In this document: piece by piece, positions 4,591 to 27,328 of the stretch | How positions within the stretch are numbered: the stretch's first letter is position 1 | Layout of the letters: each line of letters begins with the position of its first letter | Program-made: the position numbers and the translations under genes | Assembly (NCBI GenBank): GCA_016742095.1 | Contig: JACVCJ010000026.1 | Location: forward strand, 1 to 50,349 | Direction of reading: 5' to 3' | From: Bacteroidia bacterium | GTDB lineage: Bacteria; Bacteroidota; Bacteroidia; CAIKAF01 | DNA: 50,349 nucleotides | Notes under the pieces: model-generated | The model's input: only the letters and a program-made list of their open reading frames with translations | What the model was told of the DNA's origin: nothing | Database searches by the model: none

Positions 4591-5052
4591 ATGGAAGAAA
4601 AGCTTTCACTGGAACAGGATGACTACATTGGGGAATGGCACGTATTGTTTACCGATTTCCCGATGTGGCTCAAAGGCAAACGCAGTAATCCCCGCTTTAT
4701 ATACCAGGCCGGCACCCGCAACGGCAAAGAAGGACTGATCGATACCGTACGTTACGAACAGGCGGGCCGCACCCGCGAGATCAAAGGTTTTGATTTTGTA
4801 CTGGACGCACAGTATACACGTTTCTGCTGGCGGGGCAACGGACTTATGTCCCTGCTCAGAAGCAACTGGCGGCTCATTCATATTTCCAGGGACCGGAACT
4901 GGGCCATTATCCGTTTCCGCAAAACCCTGTTCACCCCTGAAGGTGTAGATGTGATCTGCCGCAACAGGGAGCCGGGCGAAGCCGTACTGGCCGAAATGAA
5001 ACAGGCCATAAAGAATTGCCTCGGCATGCGCAAACTCAGTTTTTTAGGCTGA
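4591..5052 (+). CDS. Hypothetical protein, possibly lipocalin-like
   Basis: A 153-aa soluble protein with no signal peptide. I chose ATG 4591; an in-frame TTG at 4564 would overlap the DUF445 gene. The opening YIGEWHVLFTDFPMWLKG, a central GFDFVLDAQYTRFCWRGNG and WRLIHISRDRNWAIIRF resemble the G-x-W opening and later strands of lipocalin-fold proteins, but this is by eye and could be wrong. It follows the DUF445 gene by 10 nt, so the two are probably cotranscribed. No enzymatic motif seen. Confidence 0.6.
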   Translation: MEEKLSLEQDDYIGEWHVLFTDFPMWLKGKRSNPRFIYQAGTRNGKEGLIDTVRYEQAGRTREIKGFDFVLDAQYTRFCWRGNGLMSLLRSNWRLIHISRDRNWAIIRFRKTLFTPEGVDVICRNREPGEAVLAEMKQAIKNCLGMRKLSFLG

Positions 5053-5098
5053 TCTTCCTATATTTCCGTATCTTTCTGTCTCATCAAAAACCTTTTCT

Positions 5099-5575
5099 AT
5101 GAAAAAGATCGGCTACGAACTGAAATGGGCCCTGCTTTTTGTGGTCATGCAGCTACTCTGGATGCTGTTCGAAAAAAGTATGGGCTGGCACGATGAACAT
5201 ATCGGCCAGCACCCCGTATATACCAACCTGGTGGCCATACCGGCCATAGCACTGTATGTGATCGCCCTGCTGGATATCCGGAAGAACCGTTTCGGCGGAC
5301 GTATGAGCTGGAAACAGGGCTTTCGGAGCGGGGCGCTTATCAGTATCATCGTATGTGTGCTCAGTCCGCTCAGCCTGTGGATCACGATGGAATACATAAC
5401 CCCGCATTTCTTTGAGAACGCCATACAGTATGCGGTAAGCAACGGCAAAGCCACACAGGCAGAGGCCGAAGCCAATTTTAACCTGCGCAGCTATATGGTC
5501 CAGGGCCTGATCGGTTCGCTTGCGATGGGCCTGGTCACCTCAGCGCTGGTGGCGCTATTCGTACGTAAAAAATAA
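5099..5575 (+). CDS. DUF4199 membrane protein
   Basis: A 158-aa protein with four predicted membrane helices (ELKWALLFVVMQLLWMLF, NLVAIPAIALYVIALL, GALISIIVCVLSPLSLWI and the final GSLAMGLVTSALVALFV). The helix pattern, the GRMSWKQGFRSGALIS loop and the length fit DUF4199, a Bacteroidota-restricted inner membrane family of unknown role. Ends in VRKK. Independent gene; a stem CGGTAT/ATACCG follows (about 5583-5599) but lacks a T-run. Confidence 0.75.
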   Translation: MKKIGYELKWALLFVVMQLLWMLFEKSMGWHDEHIGQHPVYTNLVAIPAIALYVIALLDIRKNRFGGRMSWKQGFRSGALISIIVCVLSPLSLWITMEYITPHFFENAIQYAVSNGKATQAEAEANFNLRSYMVQGLIGSLAMGLVTSALVALFVRKK

Positions 5576-5647
5576 GTTTTACCGGTATTCCGGATACCGT
5601 CGGGGTTTGCAGACAAAGCGGGAAAACGCGTTATTTGCACACGCGCC

Positions 5648-6268
5648 ATGGAAATACAGTATATATTCGAACTGCTGGGTACCGGTTTTTTTGCTATTTC
5701 GGGAGCCCTGGCCGCCAATGACAAGGCAAGGCCCGACTGGTTCGGCGTTACCTTTATCGGTTTCATTACTTCCATCGGGGGCGGTAGCCTGCGCGACATA
5801 CTGCTGGGCAGTTACCCGCTGGTATGGGTAGGCAATGTACATTTTATATACGCTATTTTCGCAGGGGTGGCCCTGGCCAGCCTGTTCTTCAAGTACCTGA
5901 TCCGCCTGCGCCGCACCTTTTTCCTGTTCGATACGCTGGGGATCGCTATGTTCACCATCCTGGGCACAGAAAAGGCCCTGAGCCTGGGTACACATCCGCT
6001 GGTAGCCGCCATGATGGGTATGTTCACGGCTGTCATGGGCGGCGTGATCCGCGATGTACTTACCCGGGAAATTCCCGTTATTTTCCTGAAGGAAATTTAC
6101 GCTACGGCTTGTCTGGCCGGGGCTGCCCTGTACATTTTGCTCGAGAAGGCCGGTGCCGACCGTAACCTGAACTTTTTCCTTTCGGGCGGGCTTATCCTGC
6201 TGATACGGGTTATTGCGGTGCGTTACAAACTCAGCCTGCCTCAATTCCTGAGGGATACAAACAGCTGA
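5648..6268 (+). CDS. UPF0126/TRIC-type cation channel family protein
   Basis: A 206-aa inner membrane protein made of two tandem repeats of about three helices each. Each repeat carries the family motif: SIGGGSLRDILLG and AVMGGVIRDVLTR, where the Gly pair breaks the helix in the pore of bacterial homologues of trimeric intracellular cation channels (YadS/YvgT group). Proposed to pass K+ or other cations; the physiological role in bacteria is unclear. Stands alone between DUF4199 and ssb. Confidence 0.85.
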   Translation: MEIQYIFELLGTGFFAISGALAANDKARPDWFGVTFIGFITSIGGGSLRDILLGSYPLVWVGNVHFIYAIFAGVALASLFFKYLIRLRRTFFLFDTLGIAMFTILGTEKALSLGTHPLVAAMMGMFTAVMGGVIRDVLTREIPVIFLKEIYATACLAGAALYILLEKAGADRNLNFFLSGGLILLIRVIAVRYKLSLPQFLRDTNS

Positions 6269-7125: not shown

Positions 7126-8346
7126 TTACTCTGTATAATCCAGATCTTTATCAAAGCTTTCTCTCAGCCGGAACGTACTGTATAGGGCAATGACAAAAAT
7201 TACAGCGCCCGTAATCAGAGTGGCCTGCAGAGTATGGGTACCGTCACCGGCAATGGTCTTAAAGGCCAGAGTAATGGGAATTACAGAGCCACGCACAAAA
7301 TTCGGGGCCGAAGTGGTTACCGTGGCCCGCAGATTGGTCCCGAACTGTTCGGCGGCCACCATTACAAACAGCGCCCAGTAACCGGTCGCCGCACCCAATA
7401 CCAGGCAAAGGACATTAAATCCGGTACGGCCTATGGATGGGCCCATAAAGACATAATACACGGTAAGCAGCATACAGAGCAGCAGGTACAGGAAAATAAC
7501 AGTACGACGACTTTTAAGCACCTGGCTGAGGAGTCCGCTTAACAGATCGCCCAGCGACAGACCGATATAACAGAACAGGGTAGCTTCCCCGACGGAAATA
7601 TCCGGGGAGAATCCCATATACTTTTTAAAATAACTTTCACTGAGACTGATGAGTACACCTACCACATACCAGACCGGGAGTCCCACCCCGATACAATACA
7701 GGAAGCGCCTGAAGCGTTCTCCGCTGCGGAAAAGATGCAGAAATTCGCCCCGTCTTACGGAAGTATCCCGGCGAACGCCGGCAAACATATTACTTTCCAT
7801 CGTACCTACGCGGAGCAGCAGCAATGCCAGGCCCATGAAACCGCCTACGTAATAGGACACTTTCCAGTCGAACTTATCTGCCACCAAGTAGCCAAACACG
7901 GCGCCCAGCGCACCAAAGGTCACAATGATCATGGTCCCGATACCCCGTTTTGTCCGGTGCATCATTTCACTTACCAGGGTAATACCGGCCCCGAGTTCAC
8001 CGGCCAGTCCCAGTCCTGCCACAAAACGGATAGCCGCGTACTGGGTAATATCCTGTACATGAGCGTTGAGTATATTTGCCGAGGAATACAGCAGGATCGA
8101 ACCAAAGAGCACTTTCAGGCGGCCTTTTTTATCGCCCAGTATGCCCCAGAGAATTCCCCCGATAAGCATACCGGCCATCTGCCAATTAAAAAGTATAATT
8201 TCCTGCTCCCGGATCTGCTCTGCCGGCACGCCGATGGCAAGCAGACTGGGACCTTTCACAAAATTAAACAGGATAAGATCGTAGATGTCGACAAAATAGC
8301 CCAGGGAAGCTACTACAATAAGAATAACCTGTTTTCGGGTATCCAT
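7126..8346 (-). CDS. MFS transporter
   Basis: A 406-aa protein with 12 predicted membrane helices. The loop between helices 2 and 3, GILGDKKGRLKVLFGS, is MFS motif A (GxxxDxxGRR/K). The N-terminus (VILIVVASLGYFVDIYDLILF) and the RFVAGLGLAGELGAGITLVSE segment resemble the metabolite:H+ symporter and sugar-porter-like groups, so a small organic acid or sugar is likely, but substrate cannot be assigned. Probably cotranscribed with the upstream SDR gene, whose stop is 32 nt away. Confidence 0.85.
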   Translation of the reverse strand: MDTRKQVILIVVASLGYFVDIYDLILFNFVKGPSLLAIGVPAEQIREQEIILFNWQMAGMLIGGILWGILGDKKGRLKVLFGSILLYSSANILNAHVQDITQYAAIRFVAGLGLAGELGAGITLVSEMMHRTKRGIGTMIIVTFGALGAVFGYLVADKFDWKVSYYVGGFMGLALLLLRVGTMESNMFAGVRRDTSVRRGEFLHLFRSGERFRRFLYCIGVGLPVWYVVGVLISLSESYFKKYMGFSPDISVGEATLFCYIGLSLGDLLSGLLSQVLKSRRTVIFLYLLLCMLLTVYYVFMGPSIGRTGFNVLCLVLGAATGYWALFVMVAAEQFGTNLRATVTTSAPNFVRGSVIPITLAFKTIAGDGTHTLQATLITGAVIFVIALYSTFRLRESFDKDLDYTE

Positions 8347-8378: not shown

Positions 8379-9221
8379 TCAGAGAGAAGCAAGTACCTGT
8401 TCAGAATACTCCCACAGCCTGCGCGCCAGTTCCGGGTTTTCAGAATCGGGCAGGGGAGCTTTTTCCAGGGATTCATCAAAATACCGGCCGCTTACTTTAT
8501 CGAGTGTATCCGAAGATGCCAGGAATACACTGGTTTCAGCGCCCTTTTCCTCGCTGATCCCGGAAAGCAGGGCAAAGGTATTCCATGCCGCACCTATAAA
8601 GGCATTGGTATTTTTGGTGCCGATCTTGGTACGCACCTTACCGGGATGCAGGCAATTGGCCGTAAGCTGTTCCGGACTGTAACGCCGTGCCAGTTCTTTG
8701 GTGAACAGTACGTTCATCAGTTTGGTCTTTTCATAGGCAGAGAGCACAAAATAATCTTTCTCCCCCTGCAGGTTGTCAAATTCTATTTTGCCTTTGTAAT
8801 GACTGCCGGAGCTGACATTCACCACGCGGGCAGGAGCTGACTGCAACAAAAGGGGCAGCAGTTCCTGCGTAAGCGTAAAATAAGCCATGTGGTTCAGGGC
8901 AAAGGTCTTTTCCAGTCCCTCCCGCGTAAGCTCTCTGCGGGCATGTACGCCCCCGGCATTATTGATGAGAACATCCAGCCGGGGCAGGGTTTCCCGGATG
9001 ATGCGGGCGGTTTCCCGGATGCTTTTCTGCAGGTACAGATCGCACAGGAAATACCCGTAACGGTTATCCGGATCTATCGTTCTGAGCGCCTCCAGCGTAT
9101 CCCGGCAGGCCTGTTCACTGCGCCCGATAATGTATACATCAAAGCCTTTGGCAGCCAGTTTTTCTGCCGTTTTACGACCGATCCCGGAAGTGGCCCCGGT
9201 AATCAACACAATTTTTTTCAT
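8379..9221 (-). CDS. SDR-family oxidoreductase, retinol-dehydrogenase-like
   Basis: A 280-aa classical short-chain dehydrogenase. TGATSGIG at residues 8-15 binds the dinucleotide, NNAG is at 87-90, and the catalytic set is Ser138/Ser140 (NVSSGS), Tyr163 and Lys167 (YEKTK). GRSEQ after the second strand suggests NADP(H) preference. The overall look (HPGKVRTKIGTKNTN, C-terminal ASSDTLDKVSGRYF) fits the retinol dehydrogenase/WWOX-like branch. Start ATG 9221 puts the Rossmann motif at the usual distance. Divergent from the next gene. Substrate unknown. Confidence 0.88.
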   Translation of the reverse strand: MKKIVLITGATSGIGRKTAEKLAAKGFDVYIIGRSEQACRDTLEALRTIDPDNRYGYFLCDLYLQKSIRETARIIRETLPRLDVLINNAGGVHARRELTREGLEKTFALNHMAYFTLTQELLPLLLQSAPARVVNVSSGSHYKGKIEFDNLQGEKDYFVLSAYEKTKLMNVLFTKELARRYSPEQLTANCLHPGKVRTKIGTKNTNAFIGAAWNTFALLSGISEEKGAETSVFLASSDTLDKVSGRYFDESLEKAPLPDSENPELARRLWEYSEQVLASL

Positions 9222-9251
9222 AGGGTAAATTACAGGATGAAGGTATAATCC

Positions 9252-9284
9252 TTTTGGTAAAAAGCAAAAGCCCGTGTACTTTTG
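9252..9284 (+). promoter_or_regulatory. Promoter with apparently leaderless start
   Basis: TTTTG (9252-9256), a 20-nt spacer and TACTTTTG (9277-9284). The ATG of the downstream gene at 9288 begins only 3 nt after the -7 box, which is where transcription itself is expected to start. The mRNA is therefore probably leaderless, and this favours ATG 9288 over the in-frame TTG 9282 inside the promoter. Confidence 0.65.
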
Positions 9285-9287
9285 TAT

Positions 9288-10157
9288 ATGCGAGTAGCGA
9301 TCATTGGAGCGTCCGGCCTGGTTGGCGGAAACTGTCTGCAGGTATTCAGCAGAAAAGGCTGGCCCTGCCTGGGTACCCATTTTGGTTTTGCCACAGAGCA
9401 GACCGTCTATTACAATACCCTGGAACCGGATCATGCACAGAATCCCGACTGGGACAGTTTTGCTCCCGAAGTGATCGTGAACTGCGGAGCCCTTACCCAT
9501 GTAGATCACTGCGAACAGCACCCGGACGAGAGCTTTGAAAAAACCGTGCAGAGCAACCGGAACATACTGAAACTGGCCCGCAAATACGGTGCACGCGTTG
9601 TGTATATTTCCACGGATTACGTTTTTGACGGAGAAAACGGCCCCTATACCGAAGATGCCCCCCAGAACCCGCTGAGCGTATACGGCCTGCACAAACAGAC
9701 CGCCGAGCGGGAAACCCTCGAAAGCGGGCTGCAGGCCCTGGTACTGCGTATCACCAATGTATACGGCGACGAGATCCGGGGGAAGAACTTTGTAGCCCGG
9801 CTGCTGAACCAGCTGAACGAAGGCAGGGCGCCCGAACTGGTACTGCCCGCAGATCAGTATGCCACACCCGTGAATGCCGCCGATCTGGCACAGGCCCTGT
9901 ACCTGCTGCTGAAGGACGGAAAGACCGGGGTGTATCACATTGCGTCCACCGACTGGCTCAACCGCGTGCAGCTGGCCCTGAAGGTACTCTCGTTTTTCCC
10001 GGAAATGCCATACACCCTCAGGGCCATGCGTACTGCCGATATGCAACAGCCGGCAAAAAGGCCCCTGTTCGGCGGACTGATCGCGCATAAATTTCTATCA
10101 GAATACCCGGAATTCCGGTTTTCAGGTGTGGATATGTATCTTTTGTCTAAAATCTAA
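9288..10157 (+). CDS. RmlD-like NAD(P)-dependent sugar-nucleotide reductase family protein
   Basis: A 289-aa extended-SDR protein. VAIIGASGLVGGNCLQ is the Rossmann motif, NCGALTHVDHCE is the usual VNAAAYTxVDxAE segment, VYISTDYVFDG carries the catalytic Ser/Thr and Asp of the family, and VYGLHK holds the YxxxK pair. This matches dTDP-4-dehydrorhamnose reductase (RmlD) and MAT2B-like relatives. No other rhamnose genes are nearby, so a dTDP-rhamnose role is not supported by context. Start ATG 9288 is set by the promoter immediately upstream. Confidence 0.82.
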   Translation: MRVAIIGASGLVGGNCLQVFSRKGWPCLGTHFGFATEQTVYYNTLEPDHAQNPDWDSFAPEVIVNCGALTHVDHCEQHPDESFEKTVQSNRNILKLARKYGARVVYISTDYVFDGENGPYTEDAPQNPLSVYGLHKQTAERETLESGLQALVLRITNVYGDEIRGKNFVARLLNQLNEGRAPELVLPADQYATPVNAADLAQALYLLLKDGKTGVYHIASTDWLNRVQLALKVLSFFPEMPYTLRAMRTADMQQPAKRPLFGGLIAHKFLSEYPEFRFSGVDMYLLSKI

Positions 10158-23151: not shown

Positions 23152-24240
23152 GTGAAGAAAGTAATTGGCATACTGATCTGCTGGGGCATTCCACTGGTAA
23201 GTACGGTACTGGTCCTGCTTATTTCGTATATACGTCCCGATGGCTGGTTCATTGATCTGCTGGCGTTCGGCGTACCGGTGGTCCTGCTGCTGAACCTGCT
23301 GCTGATACCATTCACCCTGCTTTTTACACGCAGGTGGAAATACTGGCTGCCGCCGCTGCTGCTGCTGCTTTTTTCGGTAAAACCCATCCGGGAGACCGTT
23401 AATTACCATCCCGACCGCGATACCACATGCGATTTTACGGTGATGAGCTACAACATCGCCACCTTCAATCCCCAGCGCATGGAACAGAAAAAGAGCAACA
23501 GCTACAACAATGCGTCTCTTTACAACTGGCTGCGCCAAAACCGGCCGCCCGACATACTGTGCCTGCAGGAATTTTACCACAGTGACCTGGACGATTACGA
23601 CAATACGCTCGATTCCATCCTGCGTATCGGCGGCTACCGCTATTTTTACATGAATCCCGTGTACAAGGATGAGTTCAAGGGTATTTTCGGCGTCATTACC
23701 TTTTCTAAGTTCCGCTCCCTGAAGTCGGGGCCCATCAAGTACGGCGAACATTACATGAACAAAGGCATCTACCACGATTTTGTGATCGGGAAGGATACCG
23801 TACGCCTGCTCAATTTTCACCTCAATTCCATGAGTATACGCCTGAACAACAGCGATACGCTCAGTTTTAAGGAATACATCAGCTACAATGCCCGTAATAT
23901 CTATAACCGTCTGCATTCGGGCTACCATCACCGCAGGGCCGAGATTGCCGAGGTGCAGAAGTTCATCGACGATTCGCCCTACAAAGTGATCGCCTGTGCC
24001 GATATGAACGCCGTACCGTATTCGTATACCTATCAGAAAATGCGTAAGACCCTGCGTAATGCCTTCGAGGATGCCGGCAACGGCTTTGGTTTTTCGTATA
24101 ACCGTTTCCCGTATTATATCCGCATCGATAACCAGTTCTACGACGAACGCCTGCAGGTGAAATTTTACCGCACGCACACCGAAATGAAGGCATCGGACCA
24201 TTACCCGATCGAAGCCGGTTATTCTTTTCGTAAAAAATAG
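23152..24240 (+). CDS. Endonuclease/exonuclease/phosphatase-family membrane protein
   Basis: A 362-aa protein from GTG 23152. Three hydrophobic segments (VIGILICWGIPLVSTVLVLLIS, WFIDLLAFGVPVVLLLNLLLIPF, YWLPPLLLLLFSV) precede the catalytic domain with VMSYNIATFN, ILCLQEFYH, LLNFHLNS, VIACADMNAVP and KASDHYPIEA, the EEP motifs for metal binding and catalysis. It cleaves a phosphodiester or phosphomonoester in an envelope substrate. A TTG-N18-TACCTTCA promoter ends 7 nt before the GTG, which suggests a leaderless start; TTG 23107 is an alternative 15 codons upstream. Confidence 0.88.
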   Translation: MKKVIGILICWGIPLVSTVLVLLISYIRPDGWFIDLLAFGVPVVLLLNLLLIPFTLLFTRRWKYWLPPLLLLLFSVKPIRETVNYHPDRDTTCDFTVMSYNIATFNPQRMEQKKSNSYNNASLYNWLRQNRPPDILCLQEFYHSDLDDYDNTLDSILRIGGYRYFYMNPVYKDEFKGIFGVITFSKFRSLKSGPIKYGEHYMNKGIYHDFVIGKDTVRLLNFHLNSMSIRLNNSDTLSFKEYISYNARNIYNRLHSGYHHRRAEIAEVQKFIDDSPYKVIACADMNAVPYSYTYQKMRKTLRNAFEDAGNGFGFSYNRFPYYIRIDNQFYDERLQVKFYRTHTEMKASDHYPIEAGYSFRKK

Positions 24241-24248
24241 AGTTTTAT

Positions 24249-24279
24249 TTTTTGCTTTATTAAAAAAAGTATATATTTG
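24249..24279 (+). promoter_or_regulatory. Promoter of the leader-orf-rtcB-prfH operon
   Basis: TTTTTG (24249-24254), a 17-nt spacer and TATATTTG (24272-24279) match the Bacteroidota consensus very well. Transcription should begin near 24286, leaving about 260 nt of leader before the first full-size gene. Confidence 0.75.
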
Positions 24280-24331
24280 CAGTCTGAATTTTTCCTCAAT
24301 GTATATACTTAAATAACAGGGAGGGCATATT

Positions 24332-24379
24332 ATGACAGAACGTATTCACATATCATCCGATCGTTTCATTGCCTTGTAA
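24332..24379 (+). CDS. 15-codon leader peptide with strong Shine-Dalgarno
   Basis: The frame reads MTERIHISSDRFIAL then TAA. Seven nt upstream is AGGGAGGG (24318-24325), a near-maximal anti-SD match, whereas other starts in the window lack one. Bacteroidota ribosomes normally hide the anti-SD, so such a site is unusual. The stop codon sits inside the small hairpin GCCTTGTAAGGC (24371-24382). The position between promoter and a ribosome-repair operon suggests a regulatory leader whose translation reports ribosome state. I do not recognise the peptide from any known attenuator; translation is inferred. Confidence 0.55.
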   Translation: MTERIHISSDRFIAL

Positions 24380-24544
24380 GGCAGCGGTTTCCTCTTTTTA
24401 TTTATTTTTAAAAAGCGGCGCCCTGCCGCTGATAAAGGCTGTTGTCCACCCGGACATCTGTTGAAACACGACACATTTACTGGTTTAATGTGCCCGGGAA
24501 AATTATGTCTTTTCCTGAGCCGATAACACTATACATTTTCTTGT
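24380..24544 (+). promoter_or_regulatory. Structured leader RNA between leader peptide and operon
   Basis: Hairpins seen by eye: CTTTTT (24394-24399)/AAAAAG (24410-24415); CAGCGG (24382-24387)/CCGCTG (24426-24431), which encloses it; GCGGC (24415-24419)/GCCGC (24425-24429), which competes with the previous stem; TGTCC/GGACA (24443-24456); CACATT/AATGTG (24472-24492); GGAAAA/TTTTCC (24497-24515). The T-rich stretch 24395-24409 follows the stop-codon hairpin and could be an attenuator. Mutually exclusive stems next to a short ORF are the usual design of translation-dependent attenuation. Confidence 0.5.
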
Positions 24545-25273
24545 ATGGAAACTCCGGATATGCTGTATTCAATGGAATATAGCCGGATACGCTCTGCCCG
24601 GGACCGTAAGCGGGCCGTTCTCCGGCAAAAACATAAAAATTACATAAAACTCTATAAAAAACGGGAGCATTTATCGGATACGATACGCTCTATTCCCCCG
24701 GAACCGCTCGAAAATCCTTACCAGAAAGGCTGGGTGCGCAGCTTTGTACTGCGGGAGGACCAGTGGCAGACACCGCTGGCGGAATTCTACCATACACTGC
24801 TGTCTAAAATAAATACAGAGCACTACGGTATGGATAAGCACTTCCGCAGACCGAAGAAACGCAGGCGTAAACATGTATACGCCACGCAGAAACAACAGCT
24901 GAAGGTGATCTGTACATGGTACTGGGAGCGAAACGTGTATGAGCTCAGCGAACGGGAAAAAGCCTGCTTCCGGCCGGCATACCCCACACAAAAGCATCCG
25001 TACCTGCATTATGTATTTTCGGAGCCCTGGCGCTTTGTGCTGAAGGTAAAACCGAACATCATAACGCATACGCGGCGCAAAAACGCAGAACTGGAGAGTG
25101 AACTGGCCCGTATAGAGAATTACATTACAAGACACCATCTCCAGGGGGCTGTAAGCCGCTGGAAAGGAAAAAAGGGGCGGGGCCGGTACCGTACACAGAA
25201 AGAGGTACCCGATCCGCTCCGCAACAAACCGCGGCACCTGATCGAAGAGGTGTACCGCAACGAAAAAAAATAA
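24545..25273 (+). CDS. Uncharacterised very basic protein of the rtcB-prfH operon
   Basis: A 242-aa protein with no signal peptide and no membrane helix. It is rich in Lys and Arg throughout (RSARDRKRAVLRQKHKNYIK near the start, RRPKKRRRKH in the middle, RWKGKKGRGRYRTQK near the end), with a tryptophan-rich core (CTWYWERNVYEL, SEPWRFVLKVKP) and a short predicted coiled coil (RKNAELESELARIENYI). I recognise no family. The charge suggests binding to RNA or the ribosome. The rtcB start is 7 nt after its stop, so it should be cotranscribed with rtcB and prfH. ATG 24560 is an alternative start. Confidence 0.7.
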   Translation: METPDMLYSMEYSRIRSARDRKRAVLRQKHKNYIKLYKKREHLSDTIRSIPPEPLENPYQKGWVRSFVLREDQWQTPLAEFYHTLLSKINTEHYGMDKHFRRPKKRRRKHVYATQKQQLKVICTWYWERNVYELSEREKACFRPAYPTQKHPYLHYVFSEPWRFVLKVKPNIITHTRRKNAELESELARIENYITRHHLQGAVSRWKGKKGRGRYRTQKEVPDPLRNKPRHLIEEVYRNEKK

Positions 25274-25280
25274 AACAGTT

Positions 25281-26678
25281 ATGAGCAATTTAAGACCTAA
25301 AGACCTGAGTAAACTCGGGTATACCAATGACCAGGCCCGCAGTATAGCCATACAGATCGTGGCCCGGCATTACAAACACAGCAGCCGCGAAGAGATAAGC
25401 GTGTTGCTGGCCGGTCTGCTGCAGGACCCCTCGGCCTACAGCGACCATGAATTTCTGCGGCCCCTGGCTGAAGTTTTTACCGGCAAACCGGGTAAGGACG
25501 AATTCCGCAGCTATATGCTGAAGGAAGAATGCGGCCCGCTAAAGATATACGGAGCCCGCGGCATTGAAGCATCGGCCCGTAAACAGATGGAAACGGCCAT
25601 GAGCCTGCCTGTGGTACTGAGCGGCGCCCTGATGCCCGACGCCCACACCGGCTACGGACTGCCCATCGGAGGCGTTATTGCCGCCGAAAATGCACTGATC
25701 CCCTATGCCGTAGGCATGGACATCGGTTGCCGTATGGCCCTCACGGTATTTGCGGAGAACGCGGCATTCAACCGCCGTTTTTCCTACCAGATCAAAGAAG
25801 CGCTGAAGACCCATACGCACTTTGGTATGGAAGGCTCCCTGGAGACCGTACCCGAACACGAAGTGCTGGACAACCCGCTTTTTGGCTCCACGGAACTGCT
25901 GCGTAAGCTACAGTACAAAGCCGCCCGGCAGCTGGGCACTTCGGGCAACGGCAACCATTTTGTGGAATTCGGCAGTATAGAGCTTTTTGCGGACAACAGT
26001 CTGGGCCTGGCTCCCGGCAATTACAGCGCACTGCTCTCACATTCCGGCAGCCGCGGACTGGGCGCCAACATTGCGCAGCACTATACACAGATAGCCATGC
26101 AGCAGTGTCGCCTGCCCAGACAGGTGCGTTCGCTGGCCTGGCTCTCCCTGGATACCGAAGCCGGTATGGAGTACCATGCGGCCATGAACCTGGCCGGGGA
26201 ATATGCACAGGCCTGCCACCAGGTGATCCACGCCGGGCTTACGAAAGCGCTGGGACTTACCCCGCTGGCCCTGGTGGAGAATCACCACAATTTTGCCTGG
26301 GAAGAAGATCTGAACGGCCAAAAGCTGTTTGTGCACCGCAAAGGCGCTACACCCGCACACGAGGGCGAACTGGGCATTATCCCGGGCAGTATGACCACGG
26401 CGGCCTACCTGGTACGCGGCAAAGGCGTGCCCGAAAGCCTGAACTCGGCCTCACACGGGGCCGGACGTGCCATGAGCCGCCAGAAAGCACGGGAGAACAT
26501 GACGCAGTCGGCCCTGAAGAAAATGCTTTCCGCCGCCGGCGTAACCCTTATCGGGGGAAGCACCGAAGAAAATCCGCTGGCCTATAAGGATATTGAAGGG
26601 GTAATGGCCGCACAAACGGAACTGGTGCATACCGAAGGCCGTTTTTTACCCTCTGTTGTACGCATGAACCGGGAATGA
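25281..26678 (+). CDS. rtcB: RNA-splicing ligase RtcB
   Basis: A 465-aa GTP- and Mn-dependent ligase that joins 3'-phosphate or 2',3'-cyclic-phosphate RNA ends to 5'-OH ends. Seen in order: DAHTGYGLPIGGV, the metal-binding Cys in VGMDIGCRMAL, LGTSGNGNHFVEFG, SHSGSRGLG, VENHHNFAW, HRKGATPA and the guanylylated His in SASHGAGRAMSR near residue 390. No archease is nearby; instead it sits 1 nt before prfH, the arrangement of the RtcB-PrfH ribosome-repair pair that reseals 16S rRNA cut in the decoding centre by colicin-E3-like nucleases. Confidence 0.97.
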   Translation: MSNLRPKDLSKLGYTNDQARSIAIQIVARHYKHSSREEISVLLAGLLQDPSAYSDHEFLRPLAEVFTGKPGKDEFRSYMLKEECGPLKIYGARGIEASARKQMETAMSLPVVLSGALMPDAHTGYGLPIGGVIAAENALIPYAVGMDIGCRMALTVFAENAAFNRRFSYQIKEALKTHTHFGMEGSLETVPEHEVLDNPLFGSTELLRKLQYKAARQLGTSGNGNHFVEFGSIELFADNSLGLAPGNYSALLSHSGSRGLGANIAQHYTQIAMQQCRLPRQVRSLAWLSLDTEAGMEYHAAMNLAGEYAQACHQVIHAGLTKALGLTPLALVENHHNFAWEEDLNGQKLFVHRKGATPAHEGELGIIPGSMTTAAYLVRGKGVPESLNSASHGAGRAMSRQKARENMTQSALKKMLSAAGVTLIGGSTEENPLAYKDIEGVMAAQTELVHTEGRFLPSVVRMNRE

Positions 26679-26679
26679 T

Positions 26680-27294
26680 ATGAAAACGAAACTCGTACAG
26701 ATCAGCTCCGGTAAAGGGCCTGCCGAATGTGAAAGAGCGGCGGCCCGCGTACTCGAAAAATTCCTGAAGGAAGCCCGCAGCCTGGGTATCCGGGCCGAAG
26801 TGCTGCACAAGACCGACGGGTACTTTAACGGCACCATACTCTCGGCCCTGGTACGTGTGGAAATACCGGACGGCAGTGACTTTCCGGCAGCATGGGAGGG
26901 AAGCATCCTGTGGATCGCAAGCAGTCCCTACCGAAAATTCCACAAACGCCGCAACTGGTTCACCGGCTGCCGCGTGTTTGAACTACCGCCCGCCTTTGCA
27001 TGGAAAGAAAAGGAAGTGCGCTTTGAGACCTGCCGTTCTTCGGGCCCGGGCGGGCAAAACGTAAACAAGGTGGAAACCGCCGTGCGTGGCATACACCTGC
27101 CCACGGGCATACAGGTAACGGCGTCCGACTCGCGTTCGCAGCATCAGAATAAACAGCTGTGCCGGCAACGCCTGCGGGCAAAAGTAGAAGAAGCCCACAT
27201 GCAACAGCTGCAGCAGCTGGAACAGGAACAATGGCTCGAACACCATGCGCTGCAGCGCGGCAACCCGGTAAAGATCTTTGCAGAACCCTTATAG
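26680..27294 (+). CDS. prfH: Peptide chain release factor homologue PrfH
   Basis: A 204-aa class-I release-factor relative without the codon-recognition domain of RF1/RF2. The catalytic GGQ is at residues 124-126 in SSGPGGQNVNKVETAVR, followed by the basic segment SDSRSQHQNKQLC. The N-terminal part (LVQISSGKGPAECERAA, YRKFHKRRNWF) is characteristic of PrfH. PrfH hydrolyses peptidyl-tRNA on ribosomes whose decoding centre is cut, so that RtcB can reseal the rRNA. It ends the operon and is followed by a strong terminator. Confidence 0.95.
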   Translation: MKTKLVQISSGKGPAECERAAARVLEKFLKEARSLGIRAEVLHKTDGYFNGTILSALVRVEIPDGSDFPAAWEGSILWIASSPYRKFHKRRNWFTGCRVFELPPAFAWKEKEVRFETCRSSGPGGQNVNKVETAVRGIHLPTGIQVTASDSRSQHQNKQLCRQRLRAKVEEAHMQQLQQLEQEQWLEHHALQRGNPVKIFAEPL

Positions 27295-27304
27295 AATGAG
27301 AACG

Positions 27305-27328
27305 GGGAGGGGAAACCCTCCCTTTTTT
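27305..27328 (+). terminator. Terminator of the rtcB-prfH operon
   Basis: GGGAGGG (27305-27311), GAAA tetraloop, CCCTCCC (27316-27322), then six T. It begins about 10 nt after the prfH stop. Confidence 0.92.

Follow-up and report, generated by a model that had tools for sequence, protein, structure and literature searches.

In a 50,349-nucleotide (nt) contig of a Bacteroidia bacterium (JACVCJ010000026.1, assembly GCA_016742095.1), hereafter the window, we analysed an operon that encodes a very basic protein (BP), the RNA ligase RtcB and peptide chain release factor H (PrfH) behind a leader containing a short upstream open reading frame (uORF). Leaders of this kind were found to accompany the rtcB-prfH operons of Bacteroidota, and in the Flavobacteriales they combine the uORF with an intrinsic terminator and a mutually exclusive antiterminator. 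Our reading, to which we assign a probability of roughly 65%, is that these are inducible operons for the rescue and repair of nicked ribosomes, the uORF leader sensing stalled ribosomes and switching the operon on.

A uORF precedes the rtcB-prfH operons of Bacteroidota

A uORF was present in 50 of the 51 Bacteroidota rtcB-prfH operons examined, with or without BP, and thus marks the operon rather than BP. Three types were distinguished: type F, found at all 28 Flavobacteriales loci; type S, which resembles that of the window (n = 13); and type C, which is Cytophagales-like and includes an operon on a Cytophagales plasmid (n = 9), the assignment in types S and C being made partly by eye. Type F uORFs comprise 25 to 28 codons, with the motif CGAAG (segment A) ahead of them. 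Their reading frame is kept in 58 of 58 uORFs, and 45% of the single-nucleotide codon changes are synonymous against 24% expected, the pairs compared not being independent of one another. Type S uORFs are shorter (14 codons; 15 in the window), lie upstream of rtcB or BP, and mostly end in a small C-terminal residue. In two genomes with split operons (L141 and L142), the stand-alone rtcB has ahead of it a related small ORF, about 50 amino acids (aa) long and with the motif RPVCVYG.

Attenuator architecture of the type F and type C leaders

At each of the 28 Flavobacteriales loci, an intrinsic terminator formed by segments C and D (C:D) ends 128 to 145 nt from the uORF start, at a distance of about 80 to 370 nt from the first gene. 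A terminator scan agreed with this in type F, returning a strong terminator with a 12-bp stem between the uORF and the genes. Inside the uORF, the best partner of segment C was always segment B, at codons 18 to 21 (per-locus p 0.003-0.11), and the two segments show compensatory changes (GGCTT/AAGCC, GGTTT/AAACC and GACTT/AAGTC), with single mismatches at two loci (L073 and L074). The antiterminator B:C, which joins the last codons of the uORF to the 5' arm of the terminator, and the terminator C:D are mutually exclusive. Given its uORF, intrinsic terminator and overlapping alternative pairing, the type F leader is by its architecture, as predicted from sequence, a ribosome-mediated transcription attenuator. 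Type C leaders have another terminator sequence (CCCGATC..GATCGGG) and, in most of the Cytophagales-type loci, the same pairing logic; these loci likewise appear to fit the attenuator architecture.

Specificity of the leaders

The pattern A(CGAAG)-B-C was searched for in 121 Flavobacterium genomes. It occurs in 32 of them, once in each, and in all 32 a prfH gene lies on the same strand, 1.5 to 3.2 kb 3' of the pattern. Overall, 37 of the 121 genomes carry prfH, and none of the 84 that lack it has the pattern (Fisher P = 2.3e-24). A control with the pattern reversed gave no match. For type S, a blind search of 142 genomes with the pattern ATG-N15-ATATCRNCY-N12-GCSTRA returned five matches. Four of these (L174 to L177), including three new ones, lie upstream of rtcB or BP; the fifth is apparently due to chance, as is one control match. 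The uORF at L175 encodes MTERIHISPFLPAA, which is close to the window peptide MTERIHISSDRFIAL. The leader can serve as a specific genomic marker for rtcB-prfH operons.

The type S leader of the window

In the window, where all features described here lie on the + strand, the 15-codon uORF spans positions 24332-24379 and follows a Shine-Dalgarno-like (SD-like) GGGAGGG at 24319-24325. The leader, described as hairpin-rich in the initial annotation, folds better than its own shuffles (-73.6 kcal/mol, z -2.9), and it has no Rfam match at the gathering score. Three pairings were discerned in it. The first is a hairpin (24291-24325; -8.6 kcal/mol, p 0.017) that can mask the SD-like site by pairing it with TTTCCTC at 24291-24297. 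The second surrounds the uORF stop codon (GCC TTG TAA GGC, 24371-24382), with a p value of about 0.09 in the window alone. The third, X:Y, is an alternative long-range pair (24380-24431) between GGCAGCGG at 24380-24387 and CCTGCCGCTG at 24422-24431, for which p is 0.14 in the window alone. When 12 type S leaders were combined, the p values were 4e-5 for the SD-masking hairpin, 1e-5 for the stop-codon hairpin, whose stems differ in sequence among relatives, and 4e-4 for X:Y. This conservation argues that the window leader may also act as a sensor. Codons 7 and 8 read ATA-TCR (Ile-Ser) in most type S uORFs, ATA-TCA at 24350-24355 in the window, and these codons could possibly be a slow or stall site.

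Leaders in Escherichia coli and on a phage-like contig

Upstream of the rtcB2-prfH genes of E. coli, there is a 15-codon uORF encoding MTNPLSMTLCRPFQD with AAGGAGG ahead of it; this uORF is the same in four alleles with differing flanks. A phage-like contig has a 13-codon uORF, led by an SD site, at the equivalent place. From the fold of the E. coli leader, a clear terminator was not established. E. coli K-12 and another strain (L134 and L135) retain the uORF leader, though the rtcB2 and prfH genes behind it are truncated. The 12-mer TTCGTCTGCCAT is common to the E. coli leader (L131, 2614-2861) and a Pedobacter leader (L004, upstream of 5028), where it lies at the downstream pairing arm; this may be due to chance.

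Proposed mechanism and its alternatives

We propose that expression of the operon would stay low as long as ribosomes initiate on the leader and translate it normally. Where the decoding centre is cut, the ribosome would still initiate on the uORF but halt after a few codons; the end of the uORF would then be available for pairing with downstream RNA, and the operon would come on. In the Flavobacteriales and Cytophagales, segment B, in the 3' part of the uORF, would pair with segment C, the 5' arm of the terminator, so that C:D is replaced and transcription attenuation relieved. In leaders of the window type, the uORF, the masked SD, the stop-codon hairpin and the alternative downstream pair are conserved, and an output step would presumably follow from them. 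PrfH would then release the peptide and RtcB reseal the 16S rRNA, these roles being known or proposed from E. coli. Ribosomes cleaved by colicin E3 initiate at about 75% and fail in successive decoding steps (PMC2615495); such a ribosome, initiating but failing to decode, would leave B free. RtcB2-PrfH protects E. coli, the one species in which such protection is shown, from colicin E3 (PMC9223846), and a loop can hence be proposed in which failing ribosomes induce the genes for their own release and resealing. The earlier proposal that the leader is a sensing element holds in outline: the leader is conserved as a regulatory element and, in relatives, is built in a way that fits the sensing of stalled ribosomes.

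A narrower version of this proposal, somewhat short of even odds in our estimate, is that of a dedicated ribosome-damage sensor, in which cut ribosomes initiate and stick on the uORF, flip the RNA switch and induce the release and resealing proteins. Where the SD is strong (in the window, in many Chitinophagia and Cytophagia, and in E. coli), the 3' tail of the 16S rRNA may be monitored as well, through initiation on the uORF. This tail lies on the fragment that colicin E3 cuts off. If this version is true, the failing ribosome would be its own signal, closing a damage-sensing loop without a dedicated protein sensor. In the literature examined, we found no explanation of how a cut decoding centre is sensed and RtcB-PrfH switched on; the similar uORF of E. 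coli makes the idea readily testable.

Several observations weigh against sensing of stalled ribosomes by these leaders. Five of the 37 prfH-bearing Flavobacterium genomes have no exact A-B-C match, one operon among the 51 of Bacteroidota (L107) has no evident uORF, the stand-alone rtcB genes of two split genomes have no uORF, and the uORFs of types S and C were assigned partly by eye. The pairings of type S are individually weak and modest in the window alone, no intrinsic terminator was found in the window leader (24240-24600), and a further arm, A:B, is poorly supported. Lacking such a terminator, the window is not counted among the classical terminator attenuators. When leaders were folded up to segment C, B:C formed with a probability near 1 even without a ribosome, and C:D won with D present. 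Equilibrium folding was thus rejected as a full account of the switch; the choice between the two pairings must be a kinetic one that depends on the position of the ribosome.

Among the alternatives, a general translation-stress attenuator deserves the most weight, although we put it at somewhat less than an even chance. The uORF would here sense any slowing of elongation, caused by antibiotics or by a shortage of charged tRNA, and not rRNA cleavage specifically. The pairing switch is indeed blind to the cause of the ribosome stop, and there is a precedent in the uORF of E. coli TopAI-YjhQ, which senses several antibiotic classes (PMC12121999). Against this stand the confinement of the leader to rtcB-prfH in Flavobacterium and the uORF peptides themselves, in which there is no run of control codons for a single amino acid, so that a simple amino-acid attenuator is unlikely and was rejected. 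We consider it improbable that the leader works as an arrest peptide, with the nascent chain recognising a specific ligand or the damaged ribosome. The constant length of the type S uORFs, their ATA-TCR codons and their mostly small C-terminal residue would fit such a role, but the peptides are wholly different among types F, S, C and E. coli, and the conserved LRG of the type F peptide coincides with pairing segment B, so that RNA pairing may account for it. Equally doubtful is a uORF without any switch, whose effect would be confined to boosting or adjusting first-gene translation through re-initiation or the unfolding of structure: re-initiation at leader peptides has been proposed as a general effect (PMC4833913) and the window leader lacks a terminator, yet in the Flavobacteriales a strong terminator stands between the uORF and the genes, its distance from the first gene varies, and the alternative pairings covary.

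The window operon

Every element listed in the initial annotation was recovered at its position, and the window operon is confirmed as real and intact, from promoter through uORF, BP, rtcB and prfH to terminator. A putative promoter of the Bacteroidota type, read directly from the sequence, spans 24251-24279 (TTTG at 24251-24254, 17 nt, then TATATTTG at 24272-24279), and TA..TTTG boxes occur at comparable positions in related leaders. A scan of the window leader for E. coli-like promoters gave nothing above chance, as expected for Bacteroidota. The BP gene (24545-25273) encodes 242 aa of an unnamed family associated with RtcB/PrfH and linked to their genes. It is followed after 7 nt by rtcB (25281-26678), whose 465-aa product is an RtcB-family RNA ligase (Pfam RtcB PF01139, E 3e-77) of the kind associated with PrfH, and rtcB lies directly 5' of prfH on the same strand, with a gap of 1 nt. 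The prfH product (26680-27294, 204 aa) scores 232.2 bits with TIGR03072, the cut-off being 166.65. A strong intrinsic terminator with an 8-bp stem and a T run closes the operon (27304-27328). By eye, no SD site was seen ahead of BP, rtcB or prfH, unlike the uORF.

Besides the high profile scores, the identification of rtcB and prfH is borne out by their motifs: the active-site motifs of RtcB are all there (DIGC, NHF, HSGSR, HHNFA and HRKGATPA), and the GGQ of PrfH is intact at residue 124 (GPGGQNVNK). With the narrower NCBIfam model TIGR03073, the window RtcB scores 136 bits, under the cut-off of 271.8; its identity to most of the other RtcB proteins linked to PrfH or BP in Bacteroidota is about 48-64%. 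Since BP orthologues are co-located with these genes elsewhere, and since an ORF of 14 to 15 codons, conserved in sequence and length, recurs before the same genes, the arrangement in the window is more than a chance one. At another locus (L006, 7142-7759), prfH has an in-frame stop that leaves ORFs of 71 and 111 aa in one frame, which may reflect decay, an error in the metagenome-assembled genome (MAG) or recoding; an RtcB paralogue and an ORF that we read as TROVE/Ro60-like lie nearby.

BP is an optional and movable companion of rtcB and prfH

The window BP has an isoelectric point (pI) of 10.2, with 56 Lys and Arg against 27 Asp and Glu residues, and the pI of the family ranges from 9.7 to 10.2. 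A first scan yielded five BP relatives, in Flavobacterium, Pedobacter and one Bacteroidota MAG, all immediately 5' of rtcB. Among 395 sampled Bacteroidota genomes, BP was present in 11 and true prfH in 28. At all 25 loci found, BP adjoins rtcB and/or prfH, one of these copies lying about 3 kb from rtcB in a tRNA array; the view that BP belongs to the system is upheld by this linkage, homologues not being found mostly elsewhere. The position of BP varies. It is 5' of rtcB in many species and 3' of prfH at four loci (L086, L087, L089 and L114); it stands beside prfH alone at L084 and L085, where rtcB is elsewhere in both genomes, and beside rtcB alone in Pedobacter (L004 and L005). Close Flavobacterium species with the same neighbouring genes have or lack BP (L018 and L060). 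The operon had been portrayed as a unit of four fixed parts, an idea that we rejected, as sister species share the locus with and without BP, BP is movable, and the leader is present in either case.

No Pfam or NCBIfam family matched BP at threshold, the matches in Pfam, PHROGs and NCBIfam being at chance level only. No relative of its sequence was found in the PDB, neither the whole model nor the predicted core (pLDDT 91) gave anything above noise in fold searches, and no catalytic signature was seen. A protein of known domain was therefore rejected, and BP represents an unnamed family whose core is predicted with confidence and which nothing in the searched libraries matches. Because it is very basic and has no catalytic signature, BP is most likely an optional accessory that would bind RNA or the 30S subunit as a partner of RtcB/PrfH. 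We regard as unlikely the alternative that BP is instead a DNA- or RNA-binding regulator of the operon or a toxin-like element. In many species it heads the operon, and it has weak winged-helix-like fold matches (Z 2.0-2.4), but these are far under meaningful scores, BP lies 3' of prfH in several genomes, the leader is retained where BP is absent, and no catalytic signature is present.

A diverged BP subgroup has KPxRHGW in place of NPYQKGW and sometimes two copies; at L027, two diverged paralogues stand in tandem order ahead of rtcB (9030-9704 and 7580-8275). The window BP gave no tblastn match on plasmids. An IMG/VR contig (L118), probably from outside Bacteroidota, carries a BP homologue inside an array of tRNA genes, with an RtcB-family gene about 3 kb away (804-1470 and 4773-6254) and a nucleotidyltransferase-like gene between the two; this homologue gave no tblastn match in phages. 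On three further IMG/VR contigs (L119, L120 and L121), RtcB-family genes adjoin arrays of 19 to 21 tRNA genes.

Comparison with known systems

The closest known system is RtcB2-PrfH of E. coli (PMC9223846; Baranov 2006, PMC1586002), which, like the window, has an rtcB-type ligase gene directly 5' of prfH and a 15-codon uORF; unlike the window, it has no BP alongside. Searching PMC9223846 for upstream and promoter terms turned up no discussion of a leader. Our literature search found no description of a leader upstream of rtcB or prfH, and the leader of the rtcB-prfH operons is thus a new result, undescribed as far as the literature searched shows.

The initial annotation knew of no description of the full arrangement, but for the accessory genes one exists. 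Burroughs and Aravind (2019, PMC6514570) describe RFH-RtcB neighbourhoods ('RFR' domains) that gather a TPR protein, a Pol-beta-type nucleotidyltransferase, a Zn-ribbon protein and a helical, charged protein for which no homologues were detectable. Apparently the same accessory set was seen here: prfH is followed by a protein of some 176 aa, which we read as TPR, and between rtcB and prfH lie a MGAPHN protein (about 181 aa) and a Zn-ribbon protein (about 200 aa). Compared by text description only, BP is probably the charged protein, the fourth of that survey, so that its association with rtcB/prfH is not wholly new. The passages of the survey consulted mention no leader, and it is the present analysis that shows BP to be optional and to change place.

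The rsr-yrlBA-rtcBA operon under RtcR (PMC7790460) is likewise an RNA-repair operon induced by RNA damage; its sensor is a CARF-domain activator, the title of that source names damaged tRNAs as the regulator, and the text consulted describes no uORF leader. Bacteroidota ribosomes mostly ignore SD sites, and the autoregulation of bS21 (rpsU) in Bacteroidia (PMC9976891) resembles the window leader in relying on an unusually strong SD in this phylum; the SD described here belongs to a uORF ahead of an rRNA-repair operon, and the Flavobacteriales leaders have no strong SD. Finally, uORF attenuators such as those of E. coli topAI (PMC12121999) and of amino-acid operons, including those of Flavobacterium psychrophilum (PMC9723704), also control downstream genes through a short ORF and a stalled ribosome, whereas in the present case other leader sequences, free of amino-acid control codons, precede genes that repair the ribosome itself.

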